Of a stretch of 64,000 bases of DNA, positions 19,052 through 55,993 are shown piece after piece. Position 1 is the stretch's first letter, and the number at the start of each line of letters is the position of its first letter. The stretch covers positions 45,088,501-45,152,500 of the forward strand of contig NC_080557.1 of NCBI RefSeq assembly GCF_030253575.1. Reading direction: 5' to 3'. The notes under the pieces are model-generated. The model worked only from the letters and a program-made list of their open reading frames with translations, was not told the origin of the DNA and ran no database searches. Made by a program: the position numbers and the translations under genes. The stretch is from Rhododendron vialii. Lineage: Eukaryota; Streptophyta; Magnoliopsida; Ericales; Ericaceae.

Positions 19052-19618
19052 ATGTTGAAGCTGCCATCGTCAAGCAATGCTACAGGCGCAGACATCAGTA
19101 ACCCAAAAGCCCTAATCGAGAACCACCGCCGATTCCTCGGCGCTTCTTCTTCGAGGCTCAAGATCTCAATTTGCAGACGGAACGCCGCCGTTTCATGCGA
19201 GGCTTATTCTTCTGCTTCTTCGTCGGCTCCAATTGTAGTGGAGCCGCAGGGGAAGGACGCTGCCGCCGGCGGCGGCTTCGAGAAGAGCGTGGCTGACCGG
19301 CTTCGGCAGGGGAGCTTGACGGAGGACGGGCTTTCTTATAAGGAGAAGTTCATAGTCAGGTGTTATGAGGTTGGGATTAACAAAACTGCCACTGTTGAAA
19401 CCATTGCTAATCTCTTGCAGGTAATGCGCTCCCTCCCTCCCTCTTTCTCCCTCTAGATGTGCAAATTCATTTACTTTAGGGTTGGATTTGATAGTAATTG
19501 ACTAGAATTCTTCCAATTTCCCTTTGACTTGTTTGGAATTTGAAATATCTTTGCATGTGCTTGATTTGGATCTGTGGAAACTGCTCTTGAACATAATTAG
19601 GAATTGTGAACTTTGAGC

Positions 19619-19664
<46 letters not shown>

Positions 19665-22600
19665 TAGCAATTTGTGGATTGTATTGCTTTTTAGGTTGTT
19701 TGGATAACGATACCCTGCTTGATTTTGATAATCTTCGTCTGCTTTCTTTTACTGTCATATTGCGTATTGCTGTCTACTCGGTTATGTATTGAATCAATAC
19801 AGGAATATGACTAAATTACTAATATCAATGTTAAAGCATCCAACTCATAACCAATTGGTTATGAGTGGAGAGGCCGCCCAGGCTCGTAAATTAACCAATG
19901 TGAGACAATTCCAAGTTTCCAACAATCAACATCCCCACATTTTTCAGTATTAGTTTTCCTGCAAAGTTCTTGTCAATTTTGTTTATGTAGGAGGTTGGAC
20001 GTGTAACCATGCCCTTGAGTGTGGGAATGGCTGCATTAGTAATACCAAATTAGGAATGAAAGAAACAGTATTTCGTTTACTCAATAGCAGGGCCACAGCA
20101 AAGGCAAGCAAGGCGTCTTCCATGGGACTCCAAAAGTTTGCTAAATTGAGGGCCCCCAAAAAAGTTGAATAGTATTTAGTAAATATTGGTTTATAAAATT
20201 GTATGCATTCAACATGAGCATGTCAATAAGTAAAAATTGATTGTACGAGCATAATTAGCACTTTTGCCGCTATAAATGTAAAAAGAGGGATATTTAAGTG
20301 ATTGTGTTAAGTCTTTGTAATGAGATGTGTAATTTTGAAATTTTATCGCATTGAATACTACTCTGTAATAATTTTGCTTTTTTGAAGTTGGCTTGTCTTT
20401 TTATCATTTTGCTTGTAATGCATAAAGGGCCTCATTTTCTTAAATTTGTCTTGGGCCTGCAAAATGTCCAGGCCAGCCCTGCGCATACTGTAACGTTCTT
20501 GTCAATTCTGTAATGTAGGAGGTTGGATGTAACCACGCTCAGAGTGTGGGATTTTCAACGGATGGATTTGCAACGACTACTACCATGAGAAAATTGCATC
20601 TCATATGGGTGACTGCTCGCATGCACATCGAAATTTATAAATACCCTGCTTGGTGAAAACTTTTTGCTCCCTTATTTGTGGATATTGGAACTGCAACGAT
20701 ACTTTTGTTTATCTTCAGTAATATTTGGGACAGGAGTGACGTGGTTGAAATAGAAACCTGGTGCCAAAGTGAAGGTCGGATTGGGACTAGACGTGATTGG
20801 ATTCTCAAGGACTATGCTACTCAAGAAGTCATTGGGAGGGCTACGAGGTGCATACTCTCTTTTTCAGTTCCTTAATCCTTACTATTACAATTGATGATCA
20901 ACCCCTCCCTACCAACTACCAAGCCAAGCTTGTGCCCTGATCAATTGAGGTCTGCTACTTGCACTGGATCCCACCTCTTGTGCCATATTAGTCTTTGTGT
21001 AGTGAGGGTACTATCACACACTGTTATTTGTTGAGTGCATGTATCCACTAAATGCTTCCAATCCTTTAGATTGCCATTGTAGAAGTTAACCCATTGGACG
21101 GTATACACCTTGTAACTTATATGCTTGGGGCCATTATGTTACCCTCTAACATGTACGAATTATTTCTACAATATATACTTGCAAGTGTTTTGGCCAGTTT
21201 CACTACCAATCAGAGTTACCTTCAACCCAATGCATTGTACTAGTTTTGGAGTAGCAGTATTCATGCAAATGCTTCTTGCGCGGGAATTTATAGAACTGCA
21301 ATGTAGGGATCTGTAGATTGTTGGGTTTTATTCTGTTTATTTTTCCTCATCGTCAAATAATGGTGGTGTTTCTTTCCTCTTATGCGTGTAGACGCGTTTC
21401 ATTTGATTTTCTGATTATAATCAAATGAAGATCGGTCAAGGACTCACGATAGCCAATGTGTCTATTAGACCCTCCAACCTGATAATTCTCCTGAATATGA
21501 ATGTTTTATGGTTGGGCACTTGGGCTCTTCGAGAAACTGTAGCTTTAGGTAGTTAGCCATCATGATTTCAAGATTCCCCTTGCAGACAGCACTGAATGTT
21601 TATTTGCTCCCTTAGTTGATATCGCTGTCCAAACTCCATACTACGTTTGACTATGTTTTTTAATTTGGAATTCAACAGTTTCTATTTTTTACTGCAGCAA
21701 GTGGGTAATGATGAACCAAGATACTAGACGACTTGAAAAAGTCAGTGATGATGTCCGAGAGGAATATTTGGTTTTCTGTCCAAGAGAACCAAGGTAAACA
21801 ATGTTTCTCTTTAGGATATGACTTTCTCAATAATGACATCATATGTTTGTCATATCTTATTGATTGTTGCAGTATTGTGCATAAGCAGAATCTCCCGTGT
21901 TATGATTGATTCTGGAACATGATAATATTGTACTGCTTCCTTTGCCCTCTCTGTCATATTTTTCTTTCACTTTGCAAACCTCTTCTGTTACAAACTGATG
22001 AAGCACGTAATTGTGTGTATTAGCAACTTAAAGTGTCATGAAACAAAATATGCATTTGTGCTTCTTGGTTGCCCATGAGTTTGCTCCTTTTAATTTTGCG
22101 GTGCGATTTTTTTATCTGACCGAGCAATAGGGATCCTTAAAGCTGATCATTACAAATGTTACGTTTCATTGGAGTGAGTTTGACATATGAGATAAGTACC
22201 TTTCGCCCCATTATTGGACCGGGTGAAAATGTCGGAACTTACCGGACACGGAATTTTCTACCTTAGCACTGTTACAGGAAGGCTGCTGTTTGACCCCTCG
22301 CACACAACTGGCCCAAGCTTTCCCTGTGGAGGAGCCCTTGACCCACAGCTGAGAGAGAGAGATTTATCCAAGTGGCTTGCCTATATTATATTCTCTTGTA
22401 TTCGGTTGGTCAAACCGACGATTCTCTTTTAAAGCTAAACATATAGAGCCTAACGTAGGAAAATGTTGAATATACCCAAAAATCAGGCACACCCAATTGG
22501 GTAAATCCATATGCCCCAATACTGCTGTCAGCTATAAGGATTGTTTTTCAATTATTAGCAAAGTCCTCTCTAGTTTTGATCCATGGCTATCTAGAGAAAT

Positions 22601-24374
22601 TTTGTTTATCAATTCTTTTTTCCTCCAATGTCATCAACTTGCATAAGATTGTTTTATCCTTGTTGATGCATCTCTTGTTATTATTTTTGTTGTGGAACCT
22701 AGGTTAGCATTTCCAGAAGAGAAAAATGGCAGTCTGAAGAAGATAGCCAAATTGGAAGATCCCGCTCAGTATTCTCGGCAAGGATTGGTGGTAAGAATAA
22801 TATCATTCTACATCTCTAGTTTGTGGCTTAGTGCTTACTCACCTACCCACATGTTTTGGAATTTGTAGCCTAGAAGAGCTGATCTGGACATGAACCAGCA
22901 TGTAAACAATGTTGCCTATATTGGTTGGGTTTTGGAGGTTGGTAAAGTTGAACTTCTTTGTCATCAATAAGTCGTTTTTCCCTAATACTCCCTAGCTCAA
23001 AGAGAAACGACGATCAGTGCAGACTTTGTGTAATGAAACATATAAAGGATCTTTTATTCTTTTGTACGAACTTTTATCTTCATGAAAATCACAACTCTAA
23101 AATTAAATCCTTCAGATAATTTGGTGCTCCTGAATTAGCAAAAAGGCACTGGTTCGTTGATGGCAGCCAACTCTGCTGTCCAGCTTGAACCATGCCCCTG
23201 ATTGGTGGACTTTTCCCCTTTCTCTACTACATTGAAACTGAGTTTGTGAGTTATTGTCTTCTTTCTATTTGGTTGAAGAGGAGGACTTGCTCATGTTTTG
23301 GGTATATTGCCATTTCAGCAAAGAAACGTTTCATCAGTGGAACTAAAAGAACACCAGACTAAAAGAACACCAGAAAATGACAGAAAACCGTGATAAGACT
23401 TTTTTCTTTCCCTTCCTTCAGAATGCTTCTCATACACCAGGGATGGAGTGTGTGCTCAGTGCACTTAAATAAATGTCTGCCACGAGGTATGGTTGGCTGT
23501 TGGTGATAAATAGAACCTTTCAGATACTCATCTGAACTTTTACTTACTTAGACCGTAGATGCCACCCTTGTGTTCTTGCCTTCATGCCGGTTCTGCAGAC
23601 AGTGTCGGGAGCCTTGTGCACTGGCACTTTTGACTATGGATTCCTATTCCGTCACCATTGCTTTGAAATATTGTTTCCAACTAAGTTACATGGACTCTTG
23701 AAATGTAAGAATTGCCCATTTCAGACACTTCATGTTTGCCAGCCGACTGACTTTCTGCATGACATGATCTATGGCATCTTGTAATAGTAATTTACCTCCG
23801 AAAATGCAAGAAACGTGTTAAGAGATATGAATATTTTTATGGCCCTAAGTCCTTGACATGAAGATGAAATCCAAAGACACAGCTGACACCAGCACAAGTC
23901 CACATAACATAGGTTGTCACCGGATGGTTCTCACAACAAATTTTGGGACATTGAATGACATGCAGCTCACTCAATTTATTCAGCATCTAGTTGACTAACT
24001 CTTTTTTTTGGCACTTCGGAAATTATCCAGTTGACTAACACAAACACTTTTGCATTATCTTTTGTTTACTCTGACAGAGTGTGCCTCAAGAAATCATCCA
24101 CACTCATGAACTAGAAACTATCACCTTAGATTATAGACGGGAATGCCAACATGATGATGTTGTTGACTCTCTCACGAGTCCAGAACCATTTGAGGATACA
24201 AAAGTGTCAGAGCTTAATGGAAGCAACGGATTGGCTGCAGCAGCCGCAAAAGGCAATGAAGACTACTGCCAGTTCTTGCATTTGTTGAGATTGTCTGGTG
24301 ATGGGCTTGAAATAAACAGAGGCCGAACAGAGTGGAGAAAGAAACAAACAAGATATGCTAATCATTCAGTTTGA
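19052..24374 (+). CDS. FATA: Oleoyl-ACP thioesterase FATA, copy 1 (seven exons)
   Basis: Exons: 19052-19420, 20519-20652, 20734-20847, 21698-21793, 22703-22790, 22869-22937, 24078-24374, all with GT/AG borders. The spliced product is 388 residues, normal for FATA. The enzyme hydrolyses oleoyl-ACP in the plastid stroma and releases oleate for export. Residues 1 to about 60 are a Ser/Ala/Arg-rich plastid transit peptide. The mature part begins near RLRQGSLTEDGLSYKEKF. Hotdog-fold signatures follow: TTTTMRKLHLIW, RRDWILKDYAT and SKWVMMNQDTRRLEKV. Catalytic Asp274, Asn276 and His278 lie in LDMNQHVNN, and Glu312-Cys313 in LDYRREC; this spacing matches that recalled for plant Fat enzymes. It keeps canonical residues (LEDPAQ, SKWV, EEYLVF) that copies 2-4 have changed, so it is probably the ancestral-type gene. 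A FATB identity is disfavoured by the exon-7 and LEDPAQ signatures. Confidence 0.95.
19620..19660. repeat. (CT)n microsatellite in FATA copy 1 intron 1
   Basis: About twenty uninterrupted CT units. Confidence 0.95.
19850..19935 (-). mobile_element. TRIM/LTR fragment in FATA copy 1 intron 1
   Basis: The segment AAAGCATCCAACTCATAACC, followed by CCAATTGGTTATGAGTGG and CCAATGTGAGACAA, resembles the minus-strand TRIM remnant at 60150-60235. No complete element was found. Confidence 0.4.
19991..20053 (+). pseudogene. Exon-2-like decoy in FATA copy 1 intron 1
   Basis: A TGTAG acceptor followed by GAGGTTGGA repeats the real exon 2 start (20519). The frame is open for 20 codons, then reaches an in-frame TAG at 20051. 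The start resembles exon 2; the rest has diverged. The same decoy exists in the other three copies. Confidence 0.7.
20088..20481. mobile_element. hAT-like MITE in FATA copy 1 intron 1
   Basis: The ends CAGGGCCA (left) and GGCCAGCCCTG (right) are inverted and fit the CAGGG-type hAT terminus. It is absent from the equivalent site of copies 2-4. No 8-base duplication was confirmed. Confidence 0.5.
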
Positions 24375-25950: not shown

Positions 25951-25954
25951 ACAC

Positions 25955-26168: not shown

Positions 26169-29100
26169 ATGTTGAAGCTGCCATCTTCGTCGATGTCCTT
26201 ATCGTCGTCGTCGTCGACATCATCATGCAATGCTGCGTTAATAAGGAAGCAGTGCCGATCATTCGGCGCTTCTTCTGATTCTTCTTCGAGGCTTAAGGTC
26301 TCGATACGCCGACGGAACGAGGCCGTTTCGTGCGAGGCGGCTGATTCTTCTGCTTCTTCGTCGGCTCCGCTCGTAGCCGAGACGAAGGAGAAGGACGCTG
26401 GCGGCCGCGTAGGGAAGAGTGCGGCTGATCGGCTTCGGCAGGGGAGTTTGACGGAGGACGGACTTTCTTACAAGGAGAAGTTCATAGTGAGGTGTTATGA
26501 GGTTGGGGTTAACAAGACTGCCACTGTTGAAACCATTGCTAATCTCTTGCAGGTCTCTCTCTCTCTCTCTAGATAGTTATGAATATCGCAACTGAACAGA
26601 TGGTGTACCGTACCCGTTTGCTAGTGGAGTAGTTGATTAGAATTCTTCCAATTTCCCTTTGACTTGTGGCAATCCATTGGTCCAATCGCCTTTGTCCCAT
26701 AGGTCATAGCTAACTCTGTTAGGTTTGTGAGTAATTATTGGTGCTTTAAATTTCAACTACAGTAGCATTTTTTTTTTTGGCAATTCGTGGATTGAATATC
26801 TGTTTGGATACAACACCCTAACTGAATTTGTACTACTGTCATATTGCATGAAAAATTATTCGGTGGAGAACTGTGACAGTGCCCAAGACATGCATCTCCA
26901 TTGCCATACATTTATGTGAGGCCCAAGGCTACAAGTATGTAGGTTTCACATAGATGTGCGGTAGGAGACACACGGTGCCCAAGGACAAGGAATAATCTCT
27001 CCATATTGCATAGCGTGCTCTAAACGGCTATCGGGCTAGTGAACCAATATAGGAATGACTTGTGACGAATTCCTATATTTGTTCGGATTTCTTCTTCTGT
27101 GGCGTTCTCGTCAATTTTGTTTAATGTAGGAGGTTGGATGTAGCCATGCTCAGAGTGTGGACATGGCTGAATTAGTGATTCCAAATTAGGAATGAAAGAA
27201 ATAGCGTAAAAAATTATTACACTCTTTTTTGTATTTCATTTTTATTGTAAGTCTATCCTTGCCAATTCTGTAATGTAGGAGGTTGCATGTAACCACGTTC
27301 AGAGTTTGGGATTTTCAACGGATGGATTCGGAACAACTACTACCATGAGAAAATTGCATCTCATATGGGCGACTGCTCGCATGCACATCGAAATTTATAA
27401 ATACCCAGCTTGGTGAGAACTTTTGCTCCCTCATTTGTGAGTTTTGGTCACGTAATGATAGTTTCATTTAACCTCCGTAATACTTGGGACAGGAGTGATG
27501 TGGTTGAAGTAGAAACCTGGTACGAAAGCGAAGGTCCGATTTGGACTAGACGTGATTGGATTCTCAAGGACCATGCCACACGTGAAGTCATTGGTAGAGC
27601 TACGAGGTGCATTTTCAGTTTCTTAATCCTTACTATGAAGCTCGAAACTTATCCCTTCCCCTACCAGCTACCAAACAAGCCTTGTGCAGTTGTGCCCCAA
27701 TCAATTGAGGCCCACTAGATGCATTGAGGCTATTATCAAACATTGTTGAGTGCACGTATCCACTGAATGTTTCTGATCCTTTAATCCATTGGACGCTATA
27801 GACCTCGTTACTTATGTGTTTCGGTCATCATGTTGCCAATTAAAGTGAACAACTTTTTGCTGTCATATGATGATATCACCTAGTTGCGCACTTGCAAGTG
27901 CGATGTGCAGTTTCATTACCATTTAGACATTTACCTTCAACCCAATGCATTGTCCAAGTTTTGGAGAAGTAGTATTCATGAAAATTCTTTCTTTTGTGGA
28001 AACTTATAGAACTGCAATGTAGGGCTCTGTAAATGTGTTTTGCCTAGATTCTCATCCAGTATCTTGAAACTCCTTACCTCAACAAGACAACAATAGCTTT
28101 CCTCATTACCATCAAATGAAGATCGGTTTAAATAGCCAACCTTATAATTCTCGTGACCATAAATGTAATTATGGTTGGGCTGTTCGAGAAACTGTACCGT
28201 AGGTACTTAAAGATCTCAAATTTCAAGATTTCCCTCCACAGGATGTTGATCATAGATTTGCTTCCTTCATTTATATAGCAGTCCAAATTTCCTACACATT
28301 TTTATGTTATTTAATTTGAAATTCAACAATATCTAATTTTTACGCAGCAAGTTTGTGATGATGAACCAACATACTAGACGACTTGAAAAAGTCAGTGATG
28401 ATGTCCGAAAGGAATACTTGGGTTTCTGTCCAAGAGAACCAAGGTACAAAAAGTTTTCAAACTATGATATGACTTACTCCACTACCATATGTTTGCTAGC
28501 TTAAGCAGAATTCCTATGTTTAGATTCATTCTGCAACCAGACCAGGTTTTACTGCTTCCTTCAGCCTCTCTGCCATATTTTTCTTCCACCTTTCAAGCCC
28601 TTTCTGTTATCAACTGATGAAGCATGAAATTGAATGTGTTAGCAACTTAGAGTATCATGAAACAAAATAGGCGTTTATGCAGTTCTTGGTTGCCAAGTGA
28701 GTTTGCTCCTTTTCTGCGGTGATATTTTCATGCCTAGTAAATTTTCTTGCTTGCTTGACAAATGTTATGTTTCATCCAATGGAGGTTGACATCTGAGATA
28801 AGTACCTTTTGCCCCATTATTGGACCGGGTGACAATTAATGTCAAAACTTACCGCCAGGGGATTTTTCTACCTTAGGAATAGTACAGGTCAGACCGCTGT
28901 CCGACCCACCACTTGCTACCAGCCTTAAATGGAAGGAGCTTTTCCCGCGGAGAAGCCCTTGACCCACAGCAGAGAGAGAAGGTTGGATATATCCAAGTAT
29001 TCTGTCTCATATTCCCAAGTATTTTGTTGGTCAAAACCGAGGATTCTCTTTTAAATCTAAAGTAAACAAATAAAGCCTAACGTACGAAGTATCAATTAAA

Positions 29101-30914
29101 TTCCTTAAAATCAAGCACACTAAATCGGGTGAATCCATATACCAAATATTGTTGTCAGCTATAAGGTTTGTTTTTCAATTATTAGCATAGTCCTCTCAAG
29201 TCTTGATCTATGGCAATATAGAGAAATTATTTTTAATCAATGCTTTTGTCCTCCAATGTCTTCAACATCCATAAGATGGTTTGTCCTTATTGGTGCACAT
29301 TCTTTTTGTTATGGAACTTAGGTTAGCATTCCCAGAAGAGAAAAATGGCAGTCTGAAGAAGATAGCAAAACTGGAAGATGCCGCTCAGTATTCTAGGCAA
29401 GGATTGGTGGTAAGATCATTCTATTTCTCTAGGTTGTGGCCTACTGCTTCCTCACCTACCCACATGCTTTGGAATTTGCAGCCTAGAAGAGCTGATCTGG
29501 ACATGAACCAGCATGTAAACAATGTTGCCTATATCGGATGGTTTTTGGAGGTTGGTAAAGTTGAACTTCTTTATTTTCATACTAAGATTTAGCAAAAGGC
29601 ACGGTCTATTTTTATCAGCCGACTCTGCTGTCCAGCTTGAATTTCCTCTATTTAGTATGAAGAACCATGCCCCTGATTGGTGGACCTTTCCCTTTTCTCT
29701 TTTAGTTTGAAAGTGAGGTTGTGAGTATATGTCTTCAGAAGAATATATGGGTGAAGGGTGAGGAGTTTCTTATGTTTTGGTTGTCTTGTCATTTCTCATT
29801 GGAATACCCAGCAAAGAACTGTTATCGTCAGTGAAACTAAAAGAAAACCAGAGAAAATGACAGACAAACCACGATTAAGACTTTCTTTCTTTCATCAGAA
29901 TGCTTCCAATACTAGGCATGGAGTCCATGTCTTTTAAAGAAATGAGAGTCCGCCATGAGGTTTTATCAGGCTTTTGATCCTGTATAAAACCTATCAGATA
30001 CTCATCGAACACATGGGTGCCTTCATGCCTGTTCCCATGTGTTCTTACCTCCATGCATGTTCTAATGTCTGCTGACAGTGGCGGTAGCCTTGTGCGCTGG
30101 CCCTTCTGGATTCCTATTTCGTCGGCATTGCTTAAGATCTCGTTTCCGCCTAAGTTACAGAAGCTCTTGAGAATGTAAGAATTACCCATGTCCGACGCCT
30201 GAACTGTGGCAAGGGTGACCAGTATGTGTCTGGGCTTTTCATGCTTACCTGCAGACTCACTTTATGCATGGAATGATGTACGGCACCTTGATTTTTCTTG
30301 TTTACCTGCAGACTCGCTTTATGCCTGAAATTATTTACCGACAGCGTGTAAAAACAATGTACCTCAGAGGCTTAGAAACAACAAGAAACATGTTAAGATA
30401 TAGTTTTTTAGTGTCCCAAAGTACTTGAACTGAAAATTAGTGGAAATCCAATGACAAGAACTTGCAGTTGACACCTGCACAAGACTATGTAACATAGGTT
30501 TCACCAAATGGCTCTCAGAACAAATTTTGGAACATTCAATGACATGCAGCTCACTTTCTTTATTTAGCATCTAGTTGAATAACAGCAACACTTTGGCATT
30601 TTTTGTATACATGACAGAGTATGCCTCAAGAAATCATCGACAATCATGAACTAGAAACTATAACTCTAGATTACAGACGGGAATGCCAACAACATGACGT
30701 CGTTGATTCTCACACGAGTCCAGAACCAGTTGAGGATACAAAAGTTTCAGAGCTTAATGAAAGCAATGGAACGGCTGCAGCAGCTGCAGAAGGCAAAGAA
30801 GACTACTGCCAGTTCTTACATTTGTTGAGATTGTCCGGTGATGGGCTTGAAATAAACAGAGGCCGTACAGAGTGGAGAAAGAAACCAACAAGACATGCTA
30901 ATCATTCAGTTTGA
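26169..30914 (+). CDS. FATA: Oleoyl-ACP thioesterase FATA, copy 2 (seven exons)
   Basis: Exons: 26169-26552, 27279-27412, 27493-27606, 28348-28443, 29322-29409, 29482-29550, 30618-30914. The spliced product is 393 residues with no frameshift or stop. The N-terminal 65 residues are a Ser-rich transit peptide, longer than in copy 1. Catalytic Asp279, Asn281, His283 and Glu317-Cys318 are all present at canonical spacing. Changes relative to copy 1 include EVGCNHAQSV to EVACNHVQSL, SKWVMMNQD to SKFVMMNQH, EEYLVF to KEYLGF, LEDPAQ to LEDAAQ and YIGWVLE to YIGWFLE. Several fall near the substrate-side sheet and could tune specificity; that is inference. The donor of intron 1 (GTCTCT) is weaker than in copy 1. 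Introns 2-6 and the 3' flank are nearly identical to copy 3. Expected role as copy 1: plastid stromal release of oleate. Confidence 0.93.
26850..27002. mobile_element. Mutator-like MITE in FATA copy 2 intron 1 (shared with copies 3 and 4)
   Basis: Terminal inverted repeats GAAAAATTATTC / GAATAATCTCTCC are flanked by the 9-base duplication ATATTGCAT at 26841-26849 and 27003-27011. Copy 1 has a single unfilled site at the matching place. The same insertion is at 39821-39957 and 51200-51352. Confidence 0.75.
27130..27189 (+). pseudogene. Exon-2-like decoy in FATA copy 2 intron 1
   Basis: A TGTAG acceptor, then GAGGTTGGATGT, CATGCTCAGAGTGTG and an in-frame TAG at 27187. The first 33 bases parallel real exon 2 (27279). 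Confidence 0.75.
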
Positions 30915-35641: not shown

Positions 35642-35688
<47 letters not shown>

Positions 35689-38600: not shown

Positions 38601-41600
38601 GATCGAAATCCAATTTTTTTTGAATAAAGACCAAAAAATTGGCTTATTGACTTATTTTTGTCTTTATTCAAAAAAATTAGGTTTCGATCATAATTTTTTA
38701 CTTTTTAGATTTCTCTCGTTATGACAATGCAATAATTTCTAAAAAAATGACGAAAAACTAACAAATACGAAAAAAAATTGAATAAGGACAAAAAAATAAG
38801 CCAGTCGGCTTATTTAGCTGAATAGGGTTACTCATTTTCCTCTTGCCCTAATATACCTTTGAACCAAAACACAACTCATTCTTCCATTCTCCATTGATAA
38901 GGAGGCACTTGGGAAGAAATTTGGTTATAATTTTCTACAAAAAGTTGCCATCGAATTCAGCATTTTCATGATCAGTCATGAGGCATCATAACCACTGATA
39001 TTGTCTACATGTTCAACTTGTGGACAAATACTAAGATACCTTATTTTTCTGCATAGTACTGAAAATGCACATAGAACCATGTCCAAAAGTCACAACATGA
39101 TAAATAACCATGTCCAAAAGTCAAAATATTATATAAACACAGTTCCAAATTTACCATGTCATAACCTAATAGATAGACATAACAAACCACTCAACTAGGT
39201 TACAATAAACTTAACTTAATAGCCCAAGTGGTTATAAAAAATAGTGCCCTGTCATTCCATTCATTTTCCTATACTTGGCCCATGCACTGATTCCTGACTA
39301 GGAATGTTGAAAAATAAACCTAAGCCAATTTTTTTGTCTTTATTAAAAAAAATTGAATTTCAATAATAATTTTTTACTTTTTAAATTCTTCTCGTCATGA
39401 CAATGCAATAACCTCCAAAAAAATTGACGAAAAACTAAAAAATACGAAAAAAAAATTTGAATAAGGAAAAAAAAATAAGGAAGTTGGCTTATTTAGCCGA
39501 ACGGATCTGTTTTAACCCCAAAAAATGGGGCCATATGATTTTGCAATTTAAAGGACTAACGGCGGACTAATGAAAGTTAGTAATTGGATCGAATTGAAAC
39601 AAAATGGAAAGTACAGAGTGTAAATCGAGCCAATTATAACTACAGAGACCAAATTGACACGAACACTTAACTACAAGGACTATTACAATTTTTTTCCCAA
39701 AATTTTTTTATGCAAGTCACTCTAAATTTCTAGCATTTTTTTTTAGCAATTCATGGGTTGAATCTCTTTCTTGGCTGTTTGGATACAACACCTAACTGAA
39801 TTTGTACTGTCATATTGCATGAAAAATTATTCAGTGGGGCACAGTGATGGTGCCCCTTGCCACACATTTATGTGAGGCCTATGTAGGTTCCACATGGATG
39901 TGCGGTAGGAGACGCTCGGTGCCCAAGTGGTGCCCAGGGGCAAGGAATAATCTCCCCATATTGCATTGCGTACTTTAAACAACTGTCGGGCTAGTGAACC
40001 AATATAGGAATGACTTATGACGAATTCCTATATTTGTCCGGATTACTTTTTCTGTTACGTTCTTGTCAATTTGTTTAATCTAGGAGGTTGGATGTAGCCA
40101 CGCTCAGAGTGTGGGCATGGCTGAATTAGTGATTCCAAATTAGGAATGAAAGAAATAGGGGAAAAAACTTAGTATGACTCTTTTTTGTATTTCATTAATT
40201 TGCTGCAAGTCTGTAGCCTTGTTAATTCTGTAATGCAGGAGGTTGCATGTAACCACCCTCAGAGTTTGGGATTTTCAACGGATGGATTTGGAACGACTAC
40301 TACCATGAGAAAATTGCATCTCATATGGGCGACTGCTCGCATGCACATTGAAATTTATAAATACCCAGCTTGGTGAGAACTTTTGCTCCCTCATTCGTGG
40401 ATTTTGGTCATGTAATTTTAGTTTTTATTTAACTTCCTTAATACTTGGGACAGGAGTGATGTGGTTGAAGTTGAATCCTGGTTCGAAAGCAAAGGTGAGA
40501 TTGGGATTAGACGTGATTGGATTCTCAAGGACTATGCTACTCAAGAAGTCCTTGGGAGGGCTACGAGGTGCATTTCAGTTTCTTAATCCTTACTACTATG
40601 AAGCTCGAAACTTATCCCTTCCCCTACCAGCTACCAAACAAATCTCGTGAAGTTGTGCCCCAATCAATTGAGGTCCGCTAGATGCATTGAGGCTATCATC
40701 AAGCATTGTTGAGTGCATATATCCACTGAATGTTTCCGATCCTTTAATCCATTGGATGCTATAGACCTCATAACTTATGTGCTTGGGTCATCATGTTGCC
40801 AACTAAAGCGAATAACTTTTTTGCTGCCATATGATGTTATCACCTAGTTGTGCACTCACAAGTGCGATGTGCAGTTTCATTACCATTTAGACATTTACCT
40901 TCGACCCAATGCATTGTCCGAGTTTTGGAGTAGTAGTATTCATGAAAATTCTTTCTTTTGTGGAAACTTATAGAACTGCAATGTAGGGCTCTGTAAATGT
41001 GTTTTGCCTAGATTCTCATCCAGTATCTTGAAACTCCTTACCTCAACAAGACAACAATAGCTTTCCTCATTACCATCAAATGAAGATCGGTTTAAATAGC
41101 CAACCTTATACTTCTCGTGACCATAAATGTAATTAGGGTTGGGCTGTTCGAGAAACTGTACCTTAGGTACTTAAAGATCACAAATTTCAAGATTTCCCTC
41201 CATGGGATGTTGATCATAGATTTGCTTCCTTCGTTTATATAGCAGTTCAAATTTCCTACACATTTTTATGTTATTTAATTTGGAATTCAACAATGTCTAA
41301 CTTTAACTGCAGCAAGTTTGTGATGATGAACCAACATACTAGACGACTTGAAAAAGTCAGTGATGATGTCCGAAAGGAATATTTGGGTTTCTGTCCAAGA
41401 AAACCAAGGTACAAAAAGTTTTCAAACTATGATATGACTTACTCCACTACCATATGTTTGCTAGCTTAAGCAGAATTTCCTATGTTTAGATTCATTCTGG
41501 AACCAGACCAGGTTTTACTGCTTCCTTCGGCCCCTCTGCCATATTTTTCTTACACCTTTCAAGCCTTTTCTGTTATCAACTGATGAGGCATGAAATTGAA

Positions 41601-44200: not shown

Positions 44201-44209
44201 TAGTTTAAA

Positions 44210-47055: not shown

Positions 47056-50000
47056 ATGATGTTGAAGCTGCCATGGTCGTCCACAACCTTATCGTCGTCA
47101 TGCAATATTGCTGCGAGTTCAGACATCAGTAATCCAAAAGCGCTAATAAAGAAACAGTGCCGATTATTCGGTGCTGCTGCTTCTTCTTCTTCTTTGAGGC
47201 TCACGATCTCAACGGGCCGACAAAACGACGCGGTGTCATGCGAGGCGGCTGAATATTCTTCAGGTTCTTCCGAGAAGAGCGTGGCTGACCGGCTGTGGCC
47301 TGGGAGCTTGACGGAGGACGGACTTTCATATAAGGAGAAGTTCATCGTGAGGTGTTATGAGGTTGGGATTAACAAAACTGCCACTGTTGACTCCATTGCT
47401 AATCTCTTGCAGGTGACTCTCTCTCTCTCTCTCTTCCAGAAAAAAGTTGGAGTATGTTTTTTTATACTTCGGAGCCAAATTGCGCATATCTCGATTAATT
47501 CAAAACTTTAAAATTAACAGACGTTTAAACGTCCAGTAGCCTTAAAGTTTGAACATTTGTCCAATATATGAGCAAATTGGTGTATGTTACACCATTGCCC
47601 ATTGGATTTGCCAGGAGTTTTTTTTTTTTTTTTGGTAAGTAGATTTGCTAGGAGTTGACTGGAGTTCTTCAAATTTCCCTTTGACTCATTTAAGTTTGAA
47701 AATATCTTCGTGAAAAGGGTGCGTTCTTTCTCTAAAATTTAAGTAAAAACCTTTAATGGCTTTTTTTTTTCCTACCGATTTTAAGTTTTACCTTTTCCTT
47801 GGAACATCTCCGGCCCTTATTCAAATTTCTACTCATATTCGAGTAAAAAAATCCGAGTAGAAGCTTGGTTTGGTATAAGCATCTCCAACTCTTAACTCAA
47901 ATTTCAAACTCTAATCACCTTTCACCGTCGGCGGAGCTGCAACAAGTCAGGTTTAAAGTTGGGTATTGGTTGAGGACGACAAGCTGCAAGAAGTCAGGTT
48001 TTCTCTCTTGATCTTTGCTATCCTCTTCTGAGTTGACGACTACAAGGAATTATTTCTGGCGACGAACACCATCACAAAGTAGCCGTTGGAAATTCGGTCA
48101 AGGATTTGGTTCTCACCTAATTAATTTGGTGAAAATTTTGAGTAAAAACTAAATTTGGCATAGGCTTGCGGGAGAAGTAGAGCTTTCTGAGTTTAAAATT
48201 GAGTAAGAAGTAAAGATGGTCTTACCTAATTGTTTGGAACTTGTGGGGAAAAAATGAAAAGAATGGAAAGTTGAAAAAATTCCTCCACCATTGTTTGATT
48301 TTGAGAGAAAGGGGAAAAAAGAAAAAACAAAATTCTAGTCTTGTGAATGACCTTTCCTTCCAATTGTTCTCTCATTTTCTTTCGGAAAATCCTATGTGTA
48401 CCGACCATTTTTGGACCGAAACCGTACCGACGGCCGCGCGCGGCCGTCTCCGGCCACCGGACGGCCGATCCGAGCCGTCCAAAAATTTTAAAAAAAAAAA
48501 CCGAGGGGCCCAGCGCGGGAATCAACGTCATCCGATGTGTGTAGGGTGCTTGATCTAAACACCCTATTTTTCGTGTATACATATATACACGAAAAATAGG
48601 GTGTTTAGATCAAGCACCCTACACACATCGGATGACGTTGATTCCCGCGTTGGGCCCCTCGGTTTTTTTTTTTAAAATTTTTGGACGGCTCGGATCGGCC
48701 GTCCGGTGGCCGGAGACGGCCGCGCGCGGCCGTCGGTACGGTTTCGGTCCAAAATGGTCGGTGTATATAGCAGTACTCTTTTCTTTCTATGTTCGTTTCT
48801 TTTCTTTCTTTCACTTTTCATAATTTCCAAACCTAATTGTTTCCATTAAGAGAAAATCTTGTTTACAGAGCAGGTGTAAACAAATATTTACGGAGCTCAA
48901 TCTTGGCCATCCCGGATTTTTAAAAAGTTATTTGCATTCGCGTGAATAGTTAAACTATTTGCGCGAATAGTTTTTTTAAAATGCAGACCATTGATTGCTG
49001 AAACAAACGGCTGAGATTGCACGGCTCCATAAATAAGATGTTTGCAGCCGCTCCGAAAATAAGTCTCTCTTCCCATTATTAAGCTGCTATTTTGGCGAAA
49101 CAGGAGCAAAGTATATCCATACCAAGTGCAGAATAGTTTCATAAAAAAAGCAAAATGGATATTTTGGAAATTGATTTTCGCGAGCGCTCCACTTTTAACG
49201 TGAAGTTTTTATTGTGACGTTTTTTTTTTTTGTCAAAAAGTGAGAAGATTGTATTAATAAACGTCCAGCAGCACTTACAAAACAAAAATCATTACAAAAA
49301 AAACTTGGACAAAACAAAACTAATCGTCTAACAAATACAAAATAAGTAAATCACAAGGCAATCAATGTCTTCATCTTAATCCAGACATGGCCTGACGCAA
49401 AACAACGACACTTTTAAATTGCCTAACATCTAATTAGGAGTCTCAAACGAGAAAAAATACAAAGTTAAGGACAAAAAATACCAAATACCCAAACGATCAG
49501 ATACACTCCACCCAAGTATGAATGCACCAATGAACTATCAAGAACTACAGATCTGTCAAGCCGCCACGGGTTGCCTCGCCAAAAACATCGTATACAGATA
49601 ATAGAGCAAATTGAGTAAGAGGACATACTATAAGGGTTTTTGCTATAATAAGGACATAAATATTTTCCCCTAAAGTCTAAAGAACATTCTGTCCAGAATT
49701 TACAAAAAACTCCTCCCAAATTTGACCGGCGTTGAAAGTGCTTAAAATTCTAGGGTATCCTATAAAAGTGCTTAAAACCTTAGGGTACTCTATATATGAA
49801 AGTACCTAAAACCATAGGGTACCCTATGAAAGTGCCTAAACCGCTAAAATCCTATAATAAGAAAGTGCACCCTAAAATCTTATGAAATTGCTTAAAACCT
49901 TAGGGTACCCTATGAAAGTGCCTAAAAGCCTAGGGTACCCTATGAAAGTGCAATAAGATCGAAAAACACGAAAAAATATATATTTTGTGTTACCAAACAA

Positions 50001-53000
50001 GGCCCTCGTCTCATTTAAGACAATTTAAATGAAAAAATATATTTTTTGTGTTAGCCAAACAAAGTTTTTGTCTCATTAAAGGCAATTTTGTCTTTTCACG
50101 GACTCTAGACTCTAAAATATTTTTATTAATGGACTCTACACATCACAAAAATTTAGGCCGGACTAAAGCTCCTATGAGATTGTTTCATTTGGACTTTAGA
50201 CTAATATGCTGAAAATAAAATGCTGACGCACAGCAGCAGATATCGTTGTGAAGCAATCTCAATTGAGAGAACTCGATTTGTATATAAAATTCGTCTAAAG
50301 ACGAAACTAATAACGAGACAAAACTCTCATAGATCAAACGACAAGTCATTGGTTAATAAATCGTTGATCTGAAGAGACGAAAGAAAAAAAAGAAAAAAAA
50401 AACAAAGAAATAGAGTCGATAGTACCATGGCCTCCTTCTCTTGCAGCCGCATACGGGTATGAAATCCACTGGGGGAGGGGGAGGGGAAGGGAGAAAGGGA
50501 GAAGAAGAATTGTAGTAGCTAGGGTTGAGAGAGAGGGAGAGAGAGATAGGCGGCTGTTATTCAATTCTTAGTTATTGTGACATTAAAAAAGGACCTCGAC
50601 TACGAGTTGTAGGTGATTGGGTTGCCGATTCTTCTTGTAGTTGTTTTGTAGCACTGGAATGGGTGGTTTGGGGATTGGGGTCTAGGGTTTGGGAGAGCAC
50701 TTCTTCTGCTGTTTTTCTTCTCCCGACGGAGTTTTTGGTATAGCATTGGAGAAGGCAAAACCCAAATGGAGCCTTTTGACCCAAAAATTTACGGCCCCTT
50801 TAAATGGTGAGAAAGGATAAGATAAAAAAGGAAAATCATTTCTCATCAAATCTCACCAATTTCTTTTATCACATGAGTCACGACCCACAACTCTGTCTTC
50901 ATGTGCCTCACTCTTGGCCTTGTTCGTTTAACATATTTACTTTGTTTTAACTTTGTTTTTCAATCATTACCTTATATTTTCCTCCAATTATTATCTTATT
51001 TCTCCAATTATTAATTTCATTTTTCTCTTTATCTCTCTTCAATCATTACTCTATTTCTCTCTTCACCCATTACCAAAACTAAAATACCTAAAGTTACTAA
51101 ACGAACAAGGCCTAAATGTTTAGCAATTTGTGTATTGAATATCTTTCTTGACCGTTTGGATAACAATGCCCTAACTCAACTTATGCTGTCATATTGCATG
51201 AAAAATTATTCAGTGCCTCTGGGCCGGGCATCTCCCCTACCGCACATTTATGTGAGGCCCAAGACTAAGTGCATGAGTCTCACATAAATGTGCGATGTGA
51301 GAGAGGCCTGGGCACCACACGACAGTGCCCAAGGGGCACTAATAATCTCTCCATATAGCATAGTGTATTCTAAATGGCAATCGGGCTATGCATATTGAAC
51401 CAAAATTGGAATGCCATGTGACGAATTTTTATGTCTGTTTGGATTTCTTTTTCTGTGACGTTCTTATCAATTTGTTTAATGTAGGAAGTTGGATGTAGCC
51501 ATGCTCAGAGTGTGGGAATGGCTGAATTAGTGATACCAAATTAGGAATGAAAGAAATAGGAAATTTATTATTACACTCTTAACAGCCTTGTCAATTCTGT
51601 AATGTACGTAGGAGGTTACATGCAACCACGTTCAGAGTTGTGGATATTCAACGGATGGATTTGGAACGACTACTGCCATGAGAAAATTGCATCTCATATG
51701 GGTGGCTACTCGCATGCACATTGAAATTTATAAATACCCAGCTCGGTGAAAACTTTTGCTCTCTCATTTGTGGATTTTGGTAATGTAATTTTAGTTTTTA
51801 TTTAACTTCCTTAATACTTGGGACAGGAGTGATGTGGTTGAAATTGAATCCTGGTTCGAAAGCAAAGGTGGGATTGGGATTAGACGTGATTGGATTCTCA
51901 AGGACCATGCTACTCATGAAGTCCTTGGGAGGGCTACGAGGTGCATTTCTGTTTCTTAATCCTTACTACTGTGAAGCTCAAAACTTACCCCTTCCCCTAC
52001 CAGCTACCAAACAAGTCTTGTGCCCTAATCAATTGAGGTCCACTAGATGCATTGGACCGCACCTTTCATGTATTCAGACTATTATCAAGCATTGTTATCT
52101 CGCTGAGTGCATGTATCCCCTAAATGTTTCTGATCTGCTAGTCCATTGGACGCGATAGACGTCGTAACTTATGTGCTTGGGTTATCATGTTGCCAACTAA
52201 ATTGAATTACTTTTTTCTGTGCACTGGCAAGTGCAATGTGCAGTTTCATTACAATTTATACATTTTCCTTCATCCCAAGGCATTGTTCGAGTTTTGGAGA
52301 ACTAGTATTCATGAAAATTCTTTCTTTTTCGGAACTTACAGAACTGGAATATAGGGCTCTATAGAATGCTAGGATCTCGTCTGTTTCTTTGTTTGCCCAT
52401 GGAGTAATGGTTGTGTTTCTTTCCTCTTATGCAATGTAAACATGTTTTGCCTAGATTCTCAATATGTCTCTAGTGGACCCTCCAACCATATACTTCTCGT
52501 GACAATAAATGTTTTTAGGGTTGGGCTATTTGAAAAACTGTACCTTGGGTACTTAACCGTCACAAATTTCAAGATTTCCCTTGTGGAAACCCTGGGATGT
52601 TGATCATGTCCTTTGTTTGTTTTATGTTATTTATATCGGAATTACAAAATTTGTAATTTTAACTGCAGCAAGTTTGTGATGATTAACCAAGATACTAGAA
52701 AACTTGCAAAAGTCAGTGACGATGTCCAAAAGGAATATTTGGGTTTCTCTCCAAGAGAACCAAGGTACAAAAAGTTCCGATGACTTACTATCGCATGTTT
52801 GTAATATCTTATTGATTGGTGCACTATGGTGCTTAAGCAGAATTTCCTGTGTTTTGATTCATTTCTGTAACGTTATAAGGTTTTACTGTTTCCTTCTGCC
52901 CGTCTGCCGTATTTTTCTTTCACCTTTCAAGCCTTTTCTGTTACGAACTGATGAAGCATGAAATTGAACATGTTATCAACTTAAAGTATCATGAAACAAA

Positions 53001-55993
53001 ATAGGCATTTATGCTTCTTGCTTTTTAATTCTGCAGTGGAATTTTCTTGCAAAGTAACTTATCTTTCTTGCTTAAAATAATGTACGTTTCATTCTGTTGA
53101 GGTTGAGATCTGTGATAAGTACCTTTTGCCCCATTGGACCAGGTGACAATATTGAAACTTAACGTCAGGGGATTTTTCTACCTTAGGACTGTTACAGGTC
53201 AGGCTGCTGTTCGACCCCTCACTTACTACCAGCCTGAAATGAAGGAGCTTTCCAGCCAGACGAGCCCTTGACCCACAGCAGAGAAAGAAGGATTTATCCA
53301 AGTGGTGCTCCTGTCTCATGTACCCATGTATTCTGCCGGTCAAACCGAGGATTCTCTTTTAAAGCTAAAGTAAACATATAGAGCCTAACGTACAAAGTAT
53401 CAATTCGAAATACTGAAAAATCAGGCACACTCAATTGGGTAAAACCATATGCCCCAATGTAGCTATCAGCAAGAAGTTAGTTTTTCAATTATAAGCATAG
53501 TCCTCTCAAGTTTTGATAAATGACTATCTAGAGTTTGTACCCTTCTTTTCAAATTTCTTTTTTAGCAATTTTTTGGTCCTCAACTGTCTTCAACTTGCAA
53601 AATGTGGTTTTGTCCTCATTAATTGGTGCATCTCTTGTACTCTTTTTGTCATGGAACCTAGGTTAGCATTCCCGGAAGAGAAAAATGGCAGTCTGAAGAA
53701 GATAGCAAAACTGGAAGATGCCGCTCAGTATTCTCGGCAAGGATTGGTGGTGAGATCATTCTATTTCTCTAGGTTGTGGCTTAGTGCTTCCTCACCTACC
53801 CACGTTCTTTGGAATTTGCAGCCTAGAAGAGCTGCTGATCTGGACATGAACCAGCATGTAAACAATGTTGCATATATCAGATGGGTTTTGGAGGTTGGTA
53901 CAGTTGAACTTTGTTTTCCTAGGGCAGACTTTTGGTAATGAAACATATTGAGGATATTTTGTGTAAACTTCTTTCATCTTCATGAAAATCCCAATCTGAA
54001 ATGACATAATTTGATGCTTCTGATTTAGCACAAGGCTCGGTCTGTTTGTATCAGCCGACTCTGCTGTCCGGCTTGAATTTCCTCGTTATTTATTAGGGCG
54101 AAGTCCACTTATACCCCCTGTGGTTTGGGCCACGTGTGGATACAATTCCTCATATTTAATTTTGTGCATCCGCACCCCCTGTAGTTTGTCAAAACATGCA
54201 GATGCACCCAATTAATGCAAAAAATGTAAAATCAACCAATGGAAACGATGAGAAGTCCAATATGCCCTCTCCTTCTTCCTTGATTCTTCTTCTTCCTTGA
54301 ATCTAATCAATCCATTCCATGTACAAAAAATCGGATCCGAATAGTTAATATTGTGGAGTTTGACGAGTACTACATGCATACCAAAATTCAAGTCAATCGG
54401 AAAATAAAAACCTCATGGTCAAACAGAGTTTATTGTGAAGTAAATTTTCAAATTTAGACTTACGTTTCATTTTAACAAAATAAGATCAGTAATTTGTTGA
54501 TGTTGATTGTCATGATTTTTTACCGAGATACATACTCTTTTCTTCGATTTATACCTTATGAACAACTCGGATTAGATTTTTGGTTAGATTGAAGAGGCGT
54601 GTGAGATACAACTCTGTTAAAATGGACAGAATTGGGTGCGTCTGCATATTTTCACAAACCACAGGGGGTGCAAATGCACAAAATTAAACTTGAGGGGGGT
54701 GTATCGGCGTATGGCTCAAACCACAGCGGGTATAAGTGGACTTTGCCCTATTTATTATGAAGAACCATGCCCCTGATTGGTGGACTCTTCCCTTTTCTCT
54801 ACTATTTTGAATGTGAGGTAGTTAATATATGTCGTCTTCTGAATATTTGGTTGAAGGGTGAGGCGTTTCTTATGTTTCGGTTGTCTTGTCACTTCTCATT
54901 GGAATACCCAGCAAGGAAATGTTTCATCAGTGGAACTAGATGAAAACCGCAGAAAATGACAGACAAACCACAATTAGGACTTTATTTATTTCCCTTTCAT
55001 CAAAATGCTTCCCATATCAGGCATGGAGTGCACATCTTCGTGCACTTGAAGAAATGAGTGTCCGCGACAGGGTTTTATCAGGCTTTTGGTCCTAACTCCT
55101 AAATAAAACCTTTCAGATACGCATCTCAACTTTTAGTTACAACATGGGTGCCACACGTGTTCTTGCCTTCATACCTGTTCAAATGTCTGCGGACAGTGGC
55201 AGGAGCCTTGTACGCTGGCTCTTCTGGATTCCTATTTTGTCGGCATTGCTTTGAGATCTTTTTTCCATTTAAGTTACAGGAGCTCTTGAAAATATAAGAA
55301 TTGCCCGTGTCAGACACTTGAACTGTGGTGAGCATATCCAGTATGTGTCTGGCTTTTTCATGTTTACCTGCTGACTCACTTCATGTGTGGAATGATCTAC
55401 GGCACCTTGCTTTTTCTTGTTTACCTGCAGACTCACTTGATGCATGAAAAAGTGTAATGGTTTATTTGTAAAAATAATGTACCGCAGAGGCTCAGAAACT
55501 ACAAGAAACATGTTTTGAGATGAATTTGTTTTAGCGTTCCGAAGTCCTTAAAATGAAATTAGATGAAATCCGTAGACAAACTCACAGCTGACACCTGCAC
55601 AAGTCCATGTAACATAGGTTTTCACCGGATGGTTCTCACAACAAATTTTGGAATATTCAATGACATGCAGGCTCACTTATTTTATCTAGCATCTAGTAGA
55701 CCTTGAGTAACACTTTTCGTTTTTTGTATACACGACAGAGCATGCCTCAAGAAATCATCGACACTCATGAACTGGAAACTATCACTATAGATTACAAAAA
55801 GGAATGCAAAGAAGATGATGAAGTTGATTCTCACACGAGTCCAGAACCATACGACGGAACGGCTGCAAAAGGCAAAGAAGACTACTGCCAGTTCTTACAT
55901 TCGTTGACATTGTCTGGTGATGGGCTTGAAATCGGCAGATGCTATACAGAGTGGAGAAAGAAACCAACAAGACAAGCTAATCATTCAGTTTGA
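47056..55993 (+). CDS. FATA: Oleoyl-ACP thioesterase FATA, copy 4, most diverged (seven exons)
   Basis: Exons: 47056-47412, 51612-51745, 51827-51940, 52669-52764, 53662-53749, 53822-53893, 55739-55993. The spliced product is 371 residues with an open frame. The second ATG (47059) matches the copy 1 start. Catalytic Asp271, Asn273, His275 and Glu309-Cys310 are retained, with normal spacing between them. Many unusual changes occur: RLRQGSL to RLWPGSL, YKYPAW to YKYPAR (Trp164 lost), YIGWVLE to YIRWVLE (Gly283 lost next to the catalytic loop), one extra Ala before the catalytic Asp, YRREC to YKKEC, and a deletion in the acidic linker of exon 7. Trp and Gly at those sites are well conserved in FATA as I recall it, so activity may be weakened or changed. 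The frame and all splice sites survive, so I do not call it a pseudogene. Introns 1 and 6 are enlarged by insertions. Confidence 0.85.
47433..48390. other. 5' part of FATA copy 4 intron 1
   Basis: No gene was recognised. T-runs (for example 47616-47632) and AT-rich sequence dominate. Confidence 0.4.
48398..48763. mobile_element. Near-perfect long palindrome in FATA copy 4 intron 1
   Basis: Two arms of about 180 bases, almost identical in inverted orientation, meet at a 4-base loop (centre 48581/48582, within CGTGTATACATATATACACG). The arms are GC-rich at their bases (CCGACGGCCGCGCGCGGCCG), unlike the surrounding DNA. Differences are a few single-base changes and indels. It could be a fold-back MITE. 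If transcribed with the intron it would form a long hairpin. Confidence 0.85.
49734..49952. repeat. Minisatellite with palindromic TAGGGTACCCTA core
   Basis: About seven to eight units of roughly 30 bases (CTTAAAACCTTAGGGTACCC then TATGAAAGTGC) with varying degrees of decay. The core TAGGGTACCCTA is self-complementary. Confidence 0.8.
51200..51352. mobile_element. Mutator-like MITE in FATA copy 4 intron 1 (shared insertion)
   Basis: Same site and ends as 26850-27002. The target duplication is ATATTGCAT at 51191-51199 and the slightly changed ATATAGCAT at 51353-51361. Confidence 0.7.
51485..51544 (+). pseudogene. Exon-2-like decoy in FATA copy 4 intron 1
   Basis: A GTAG acceptor, GAAGTTGGATGT start and in-frame TAG at 51542, as in the other copies. 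Confidence 0.75.
54096..54748. mobile_element. Mutator-like MITE in FATA copy 4 intron 6
   Basis: Inverted ends GGGCGAAGTCCACTTATA and TATAAGTGGACTTTGCCC, with homology continuing inward (GTGGTTTG and CACCCCCTG motifs), are flanked by the 9-base duplication TATTTATTA at 54087-54095 and 54749-54757. Copy 3 has the unfilled site at about 42615. No transposase. Confidence 0.9.

Follow-up and report, generated by a model that had tools for sequence, protein, structure and literature searches.

A tandem array of four FATA thioesterase genes in Rhododendron vialii, with altered acyl-cavity residues in copies 2–4 and an exchanged exon 3 in copy 3

The stretch analysed here (the window), 64,000 nt of Rhododendron vialii DNA, holds four FATA genes for acyl-acyl carrier protein (acyl-ACP) thioesterases in one tandem head-to-tail series, all on the + strand. 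The reading favoured here, which we hold to be just on the probable side, is that the array joins one housekeeping oleoyl-ACP thioesterase to a branch of FATA in the Ericaceae whose acyl preference has changed. What sets Rhododendron apart from plant FATA in general is the grouping of four genes in a single array, the exchange of exon 3, and the replacement of the cavity residues V121, A129, C166 and W196 in copies 2–4. The four genes are as follows.

19052..24374, + strand: FATA copy 1, 388 amino acids (aa), canonical oleoyl-ACP thioesterase type (rebuilt model, Pfam); exons 19052-19420, 20519-20652, 20734-20847, 21698-21793, 22703-22790, 22869-22937 and 24078-24374 (including the stop codon)
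26169..30914, + strand: FATA copy 2, 393 aa, altered-cavity type with the motif TWYESEGPIWTRRDW and SKF (rebuilt model); exons 26169-26552, 27279-27412, 27493-27606, 28348-28443, 29322-29409, 29482-29550 and 30618-30914
35269..43890, + strand: FATA copy 3, 388 aa, a copy 2-type mosaic with a copy 4-type exon 3 and the motif SWFESKGEIGIRRDW (rebuilt model); exons 35269-35637, 40239-40372, 40454-40567, 41313-41408, 42285-42372, 42445-42513 and 43594-43890
47056..55993, + strand: FATA copy 4, 371 aa, the most diverged, with SWFESKGGIGIRRDW, W156R, G274R, an additional Ala 5′ of the catalytic loop and a deletion of 14 residues in exon 7 (rebuilt model); exons 47056-47412, 51612-51745, 51827-51940, 52669-52764, 53662-53749, 53822-53893 and 55739-55993

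The sequence-only reading had described four intact head-to-tail FATA genes, each with seven GT-AG exons, encoding 388, 393, 388 and 371 residues, and all of this was reproduced on rebuilding. Every intron has a GT donor and an AG acceptor, and the coding sequences (1167, 1182, 1167 and 1116 nt for copies 1 to 4) each close with a single terminal stop. Both acyl-ACP thioesterase domains, the N-terminal PF01643 and the C-terminal PF20791, score above the Pfam cut-offs in all four proteins, and an alignment places Ser-rich N-terminal extensions, candidates for plastid transit peptides, upstream of the GSLTEDGL start in each of them. Residues are numbered after Arabidopsis FatA (AtFatA); this numbering reproduces Val121, Phe123, Trp141, Arg176, Trp196, Tyr217 and Phe220 of PMC12713704, as well as the catalytic set. 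The catalytic Asp262, Asn264, His266, Asn269, Glu300 and Cys301 are conserved in the four copies, and the alignment confirms the earlier claim that the Asp-to-Glu spacing is the same throughout. Exon 6 of copy 4 has 72 nt instead of 69, which places one more codon directly 5′ of the catalytic loop, and its exon 7 has 255 nt instead of 297, which accounts for the 14 missing residues.

In a PDB search, copy 1 matched the AtFatA chain with E = 2.4e-162 and 543 bits, a value that excludes chance resemblance, and Umbellularia UcFatB with 211 bits. The same two domains and catalytic residues are found in Arabidopsis FatA (PDB 7HQQ, 9HRQ) and Lemna FAT (8P8K), and copy 1 is a standard member of this plant FATA family. 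Copies 2 and 3 have 85–100% identity to other FATA hits among the matches listed. The statement that plants usually have one or two FATA genes agrees with one table of PMC8459026, which lists two in Arabidopsis, one in cacao and two in shea.

The evidence for an altered cavity comes from conserved sites. The protein listings comprised the best 120 of 639, 575 and 591 hits, so that the set leans towards close relatives; 166 proteins were fetched in total, and 145 FATAs served as references after removal of 21 rows taken as Ericaceae (P0002 among them). In these references, conservation reaches 98% or more at 129 positions, of which 0, 4, 7 and 19 are altered in copies 1, 2, 3 and 4, respectively. 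The near-complete conservation of copy 1 suggests that it encodes the usual plastid enzyme, the oleoyl-ACP thioesterase with which fatty acid synthesis terminates. In copies 2, 3 and 4, V121 has become Leu, Leu and Cys, and C166 has become Tyr, Phe and Phe; all three copies have Gly at A129, Glu at Q167 and Phe at W196, and share further changes. V121, A129, C166 and W196 are almost invariant across the references. Additional changes are G173W in copy 2, T174I in copies 3 and 4, and F123Y, T143A, W156R, G274R and the inserted Ala in copy 4. The positions changed in all of copies 2–4 include 3 of the 9 conserved cavity positions and 6 of the 161 other conserved positions (one-sided Fisher p = 0.007), and the enrichment within the N-terminal half gives p = 0.02. 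These p-values are nominal, since the cavity list was drawn from PMC12713704 and PMC5830452 after the changes had been seen.

The cavity has been mapped in a FATB enzyme of Cuphea. In this enzyme, CvFatB2, W192, R227, W247 and I268 form more than half of the cavity wall and residues 217–227 form its bottom, and the substitution V217F moved the preference to C8/C10 (PMC5830452). Our own mapping of CvFatB2 onto AtFatA uses a constant offset of 51 and was made without the CvFatB2 sequence in hand. It puts the wall residues on W141, R176, W196 and Y217, all of which are named as inhibitor contacts (PMC12713704), and equates V217 with C166, W247 with W196, and 217–227 with 166–176. By this mapping, copies 2–4 have changed one of the four wall residues and have gained an aromatic residue at the V217 position. 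This part of the cavity (CvFatB2 217–227, AtFatA 166–176) also takes part in the differences in specificity that separate CvFatB1 from CvFatB2, and CvFatB1 has Phe at the C166 position (PMC5830452). In contrast with these FATBs and UcFatB (5X04), the Rhododendron copies are FATA by sequence.

Substitutions in Arabidopsis FatB (AtFatB) are also informative: changes at 74, 86, 141 and 174 altered specificity, and changes at 110 and 221 inactivated the enzyme (PMC1770913). By our own mapping, AtFatB 141 is the equivalent of T174, a residue that copies 3 and 4 have replaced, and AtFatB 110 is the equivalent of T143, replaced in copy 4. The FatA-diagnostic residues (AtFatA 107 Ala, 119 Gln, 143 Thr, 174 Thr and 207 Glu/Gln) are all present in copies 1 and 2, four of the five in copy 3 (T174I) and two of the five in copy 4 (T143A, T174I and Ala207). 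This comparison uses five positions only, in an approximate mapping of our own built from the printed primer sequence of PMC1770913 and the ungapped part of an alignment from the PDB search; position 221 of that paper is not included.

The floor of the cavity is also where copy 3 changes partner, over the following features.

40400..40559, + strand: gene-conversion tract of copy 3 (matches copy 4, not copy 2), covering the 3′ portion of intron 2 and the greater part of exon 3
51773..51932, + strand: partner tract in copy 4, intron 2/exon 3 (exchange analysis, identity)
40454..40567, + strand: exon 3 of copy 3, AtFatA residues 157–193 by the numbering used here; 166–176 correspond to CvFatB2 217–227 (own mapping), the bottom of the acyl cavity (PMC5830452)

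The alignment runs from the end of intron 1 to the 3′ flank and has 639 informative sites in total, at 557 of which copy 3 agrees with copy 2. Within 40400–40559 copy 3 matches copy 4 at 21 of 23, and none of 10,000 shuffles attains the score of this segment. The tract is 96.9% identical to copy 4 versus 84.9% to copy 2. When sites are polarised by copy 1, the ratio of derived states common to copies 3 and 4 to those common to copies 2 and 3 is 9:2 inside the tract and 10:166 outside it (p = 7e-9). Copy 3 thus has what defines gene conversion, a contiguous tract matching a different paralogue than its flanks do. As these flanks are copy 2-like, the direction was probably from copy 4 to copy 3. 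The R. griersonianum counterpart of copy 3 (P0155, RHGRI_002734) has the same exon 3 motif, so the exchange is probably older than the split from that species. In the literature covered on FATA, thioesterases and Ericaceae, which included few subscription journals, no title or start of an abstract describes a Rhododendron FATA array or FATA gene conversion.

Likely counterparts of the copies, assigned from a table of cavity and catalytic residues together with a tree, are found in other Rhododendron species. In R. simsii, Rhsim01G0253700 probably corresponds to copy 1 and 0253900 to copy 4 (the intermediate tag is not among the matches listed); in R. molle, the consecutive Rhmol01G0340600, 0340700 and 0340800 probably correspond to copies 1, 2 and 4; in R. 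griersonianum, the consecutive RHGRI_002733, 002734 and 002735 probably correspond to copies 2, 3 and 4, with no copy 1 among the matches listed. A partial model from R. williamsianum is a further counterpart of copy 4, and P0005 and P0058 are counterparts of copy 2.

A maximum-likelihood tree was built from 46 rows (42 of the 166 fetched proteins plus the four from the window), with no FATB included; the Rhododendron rows P0006, P0007, P0012, P0031, P0121, P0125 and P0156 were left out as duplicates, isoforms or badly modelled. Copy 1 clusters with its counterparts from R. simsii and R. molle (support 100/98), and copies 2–4 form a separate clade with two Vaccinium darrowii proteins (100/96), in which the four copy 4 rows, from four species, group together (100/100). 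The branching order among copies 2, 3 and 4 is not settled by this tree. No Vaccinium-labelled protein groups with copy 1 in it; the copy 1 rows have the unlabelled P0002 as their sister. This topology would place the earliest split within the array before the divergence of Rhododendron and Vaccinium. The occurrence of counterparts in other Rhododendron species, and partly in Vaccinium, argues against a recent amplification of the array as a whole. By sequence the array is old, with copy 3 a younger duplicate of copy 2: introns are 78% identical between copies 1 and 2, 82% between copies 2 and 4 and 96.5% between copies 2 and 3. The intergenic blocks 32101-32902 and 45340-46194, 3′ of copies 2 and 3, have 87–90% identity, so the duplication probably carried downstream DNA. 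Whole-genome duplication was set aside as the source of the array, the chromosome 13 FATA of R. simsii and R. molle (P0070, P0149) lying outside the array clade.

The Vaccinium members, Vadar_012387 (P0008) and Vadar_023105 (P0026), differ from each other. P0008 has nearly the cavity residues of copy 2, in a 485-aa model with a foreign tail whose exon 7 part resembles, by eye, the copy 1-type P0002. P0026 sits on a long branch and is without A129G and W196F. The departures themselves recur among relatives. For copy 2, R. griersonianum shares the departures at all 12 of the 12 conserved positions concerned, R. molle at 10 of 10 covered and V. darrowii at 10 of 12. The 28 departures of copy 4 at positions at least 95% conserved are kept at 23 in R. 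simsii, 24 in R. molle and 21 in R. griersonianum, some of the non-matching ones falling in mis-modelled exons; those of copy 3 (16 in all) are kept at 8 of 11 covered positions in R. griersonianum. This agreement is partly mere common descent.

It could be argued that unpurged haplotypes or a misjoin produced the additional copies (collapsed or duplicated haplotypes were the refuter named in the sequence-only reading), and the 96.5% identity of the copy 2 and copy 3 introns speaks for such an artefact. However, the assembly is haplotype-resolved from high-fidelity (HiFi) and Hi-C reads, with a heterozygosity of 0.89% (PMC10338486), and the intron divergence of 3.5% makes it unlikely that copies 2 and 3 are alleles. 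Moreover, the window is free of N, the R. vialii entries for copies 2, 3 and 4 sit on a 49,061,468-bp contig that is apparently the longest of haplotype A (PMC10338486, Table 1), and their counterparts in R. griersonianum have consecutive tags. Haplotype duplication was rejected on heterozygosity, assembly type and counterparts elsewhere, and an assembly artefact of any kind seems to us highly improbable.

Copies 3 and 4 are 100% identical to the R. vialii RefSeq proteins P0007 and P0121, and copy 2 corresponds to isoforms X2–X4 (P0012, P0031 and P0156), identical save for skipped parts. Neither a full-length copy 2 isoform nor an R. vialii entry for copy 1 is among the matches listed, where the protein closest to copy 1 is R. 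simsii Rhsim01G0253700 (97%). Isoform X3 (P0031) and the R. molle model Rhmol01G0340700 (P0058) are both without exon 4 (28348-28443 in copy 2), which codes for the W196–F220 part, and P0156 is without exons 3 and 4; the absence common to P0031 and P0058 is either a shared exon-skipping isoform or an annotation quirk. Isoform X2 (P0012) is without the 16 residues KVSELNESNGTAAAAA in exon 7 (30618-30914), near the 14-residue deletion of copy 4, and no GT-AG borders are seen around this gap by eye.

The sequence-only reading had proposed selection for dosage or for new acyl specificity. For selection itself, the copies give different answers. In the mature region, omega (the ratio of nonsynonymous to synonymous substitution rates) is 0.23 between copies 1 and 2, 0.47 between 1 and 4, and 0.69 between 3 and 4. 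The changes unique to copy 2 are 3 nonsynonymous and 10 synonymous, with omega about 0.1; against a neutral expectation of 74% nonsynonymous, this is a clear departure (p = 0.0002), and copy 2 is constrained. Copy 4 fits neutrality, and these patterns do not establish selection for dosage or new specificity as such.

The observations on copy 4 sustain the main rival, according to which copies 2–4 are old surplus duplicates drifting to loss, their changes being tolerated damage, their catalytic residues surviving through chance and through conversion by adjacent genes, and copy 4 being near non-functional. It is the main rival because copy 4 evolves near neutrality: its unique changes are 31 nonsynonymous and 14 synonymous, omega is about 0.79, and the departure from the neutral expectation is indistinguishable from zero (31 of 45, p = 0.50). 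Copy 4 is altered at 19 of the 129 highly conserved positions, and the sites of W156R and G274R are 100% and 99% conserved. At the AtFatB position equal to T143, Val-to-Thr was inactivating (PMC1770913), and copy 4, with W156R, G274R and T143A, could be poorly active. Odd exon structures in the annotations of some relatives, and an apparently variable copy number (in R. molle, copies 1, 2 and 4 under three consecutive tags), point the same way. Against this, every open reading frame, start and stop codon and splice dinucleotide is intact. In a neutral simulation, at least one stop arose in 85% of replicates with 45 changes, 94% with 70 and 99% with 133 (45 being the count for the mature region of copy 4, run over the whole coding sequence, and 133 all differences from the majority of copies 1–3); the open frame of copy 4 is unusual for a freely drifting gene. 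The copy 2-only changes are mainly synonymous, most departures recur in three further species, and most of those of copy 2 also in Vaccinium. Relaxed constraint is a doubtful explanation of the group, although one that deserves serious weight, above all for copy 4.

Further observations weigh, together with the neutral rate and conserved-site damage of copy 4, against an Ericaceae branch with altered acyl preference. The cavity enrichment of single copies among copies 2–4 is weak, with p of 0.018, 0.041 and 0.042 at the 95% threshold and 0.038, 0.078 and 0.016 at the 90% threshold. Position 166 is not wholly fixed, with Phe in one Eucalyptus FATA and Val in four others, and G173W is also present in four Actinidia proteins otherwise canonical at the listed cavity positions. 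T174I may mean little, since Ile acted like Thr at the equivalent AtFatB position 141 (PMC1770913). P0026 lies inside the copy 2–4 clade yet keeps A129 and W196, which means that these changes postdate its branch or were lost there, and the copy 3 counterpart of R. griersonianum has Tyr at 196 rather than Phe. The annotated R. griersonianum copies 3 and 4 and the R. williamsianum models have exons missing or misread, through either faulty annotation or decay of the genes.

Structure prediction did not decide the matter. An AlphaFold2 model of copy 4 reached a mean predicted local distance difference test score of 53.6 and a predicted template modelling score of 0.42, and the same 40 proteins with the copy 1 counterpart of R. 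simsii (P0001) placed first gave 44.4 and 0.32; with so shallow an alignment, and a copy 1 counterpart that scores low too, the low confidence is uninformative on copy 4. Foldseek ranked FatA chains highest for the predicted copy 4 model (63–68% identity, versus 34% to UcFatB), with a root-mean-square deviation above 10 Å.

A further alternative is that all four enzymes release 18:1 and differ only in the place or time of their expression, through dosage or subfunctionalisation. Exons 2–7 are indeed 88.6–96.4% identical between copies, and a large part of intron 1 of copy 1 could not be aligned to the others by self-BLAST, as would suit a change in expression. However, copies 2–4 have altered residues that are near-fixed in the 145 FATAs, several of them lining the cavity, where simple dosage predicts the opposite; furthermore, the copies are old and were never homogenised with copy 1. 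A recent expansion for dosage was rejected on intron divergence and species distribution. Plain dosage is unsupported since copies 2–4 are no close replicas of copy 1 (the introns of copies 1 and 2 differ by 22%), and we regard the expression-only explanation as quite improbable. New acyl specificity is the better of the two options that the sequence-only reading had offered, because copies 2–4 share cavity changes with intact catalytic residues.

Garcinia mangostana FATA (UniRef O04792, P0153) offers a partial parallel. It departs at 5 of 170 conserved positions; copies 3 and 4 depart at three of the five, 129, 164 and 166 (hypergeometric p 0.006 and 0.03, respectively), and copy 2 at two (p 0.04). 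The largest such overlap among the 144 other references is two, in one row with 30 departures. Garcinia FATA has Tyr at 123, as in copy 4, and small Ser and Gly at 129 and 166, versus Gly and Phe in copies 3 and 4. The entry, listed without a contig, is probably mangosteen FatA1, an enzyme active on stearoyl-ACP. In canola, stearate was increased by a thioesterase from Garcinia (PMC1770913).

Other features of the array include a partial duplicate of exon 2 within intron 1 of every copy.

19966..20068, + strand: exon-2-like relic in intron 1 of copy 1, repeating part of the beginning of exon 2 (self-BLAST, sequence)
27104..27204, + strand: exon-2-like relic in intron 1 of copy 2 (self-BLAST, sequence)
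40024..40158, + strand: exon-2-like relic in intron 1 of copy 3 (self-BLAST, sequence)
51448..51559, + strand: exon-2-like relic in intron 1 of copy 4 (self-BLAST, sequence)

The relic probably predates the array, as all four copies have one. AG precedes each of them, and that of copy 2 would, by hand translation, read EVGCSHAQSVDMAELVIPN and then a stop; a role as a decoy or poison exon is possible. Intron 1 of copy 4 contains, at 48409-48754, a 171-nt inverted repeat, 99% complementary with a 4-nt spacer, that resembles a miniature inverted-repeat transposable element. More inverted-repeat insertions, seemingly absent from the other copies, lie at 38256-39715 (intron 1 of copy 3), 44209-44785 (3′ flank of copy 3) and 54094-54750 (intron 6 of copy 4). 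Upstream of the array are open reading frames with B3 DNA-binding domains at 8567-9331 and 15241-16149, both on the − strand, and 8564-8902 and 15238-15588 are 70% identical, a second local duplication. A RING finger open reading frame lies downstream of copy 4 (59259-59585, − strand). Tandem repeats occupy 13156-13709 (a 135-bp unit, 4.1 times, in an A+T-rich stretch with 26.5% GC at 12001-14000) and 62838-62985 (the 14-bp unit AACGGCTAGTTTCC, 10.6 times).

FATA also appears in two reports on Rhododendron. In one, FATA is linked to Bio1, and a 17-residue insertion is described in low-altitude species (PMC13326988); the lengths of copies 1 and 4 also differ by 17 aa, copy 4 being the shorter, and mixing of paralogues may be involved. 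In the other, a FATA transcript, which may come from any of the copies, falls under waterlogging in R. delavayi leaves (PMC10341954).

To return to the favoured reading, copies 2–4 would stem from a duplicate that predates the separation of Rhododendron and Vaccinium. Keeping the Asp-Asn-His-Glu centre, they would still hydrolyse acyl-ACP, presumably with a changed acyl preference. By analogy with V217F in Cuphea FatB2, the aromatic residue at 166 would raise the cavity floor and favour shorter chains, and W196F and A129G would reshape the cavity wall. Copy 3 would have been derived later from copy 2, and an exchange of about 160 bp, probably from copy 4 to copy 3, would have set the cavity floor of copy 4 into a copy 2 backbone.

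A bolder proposal, and in our view rather unlikely, is that the Ericaceae have a long-lived FATA-derived subfamily that no longer serves oleate and releases a non-standard chain, shorter or modified, with diversification by gene conversion that swaps the cavity-floor exon. Speculatively, such a chain could possibly feed a family-specific product, e.g., the beta-diketones of Rhododendron waxes, which appear in citations within PMC10638390 and PMC5620584.

FATA acts on 18:1-ACP, and chain-length diversity has been described for FATB (PMC5830452). V121 and W196, both changed in copies 2–4, are named as contacts of FAT inhibitors (PMC12713704), which makes the array relevant to herbicide binding. 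If the favoured reading is true, Rhododendron would hold a natural FATA branch with a rebuilt cavity and an exon 3 exchange, that is, ready variants for probing FATA specificity.

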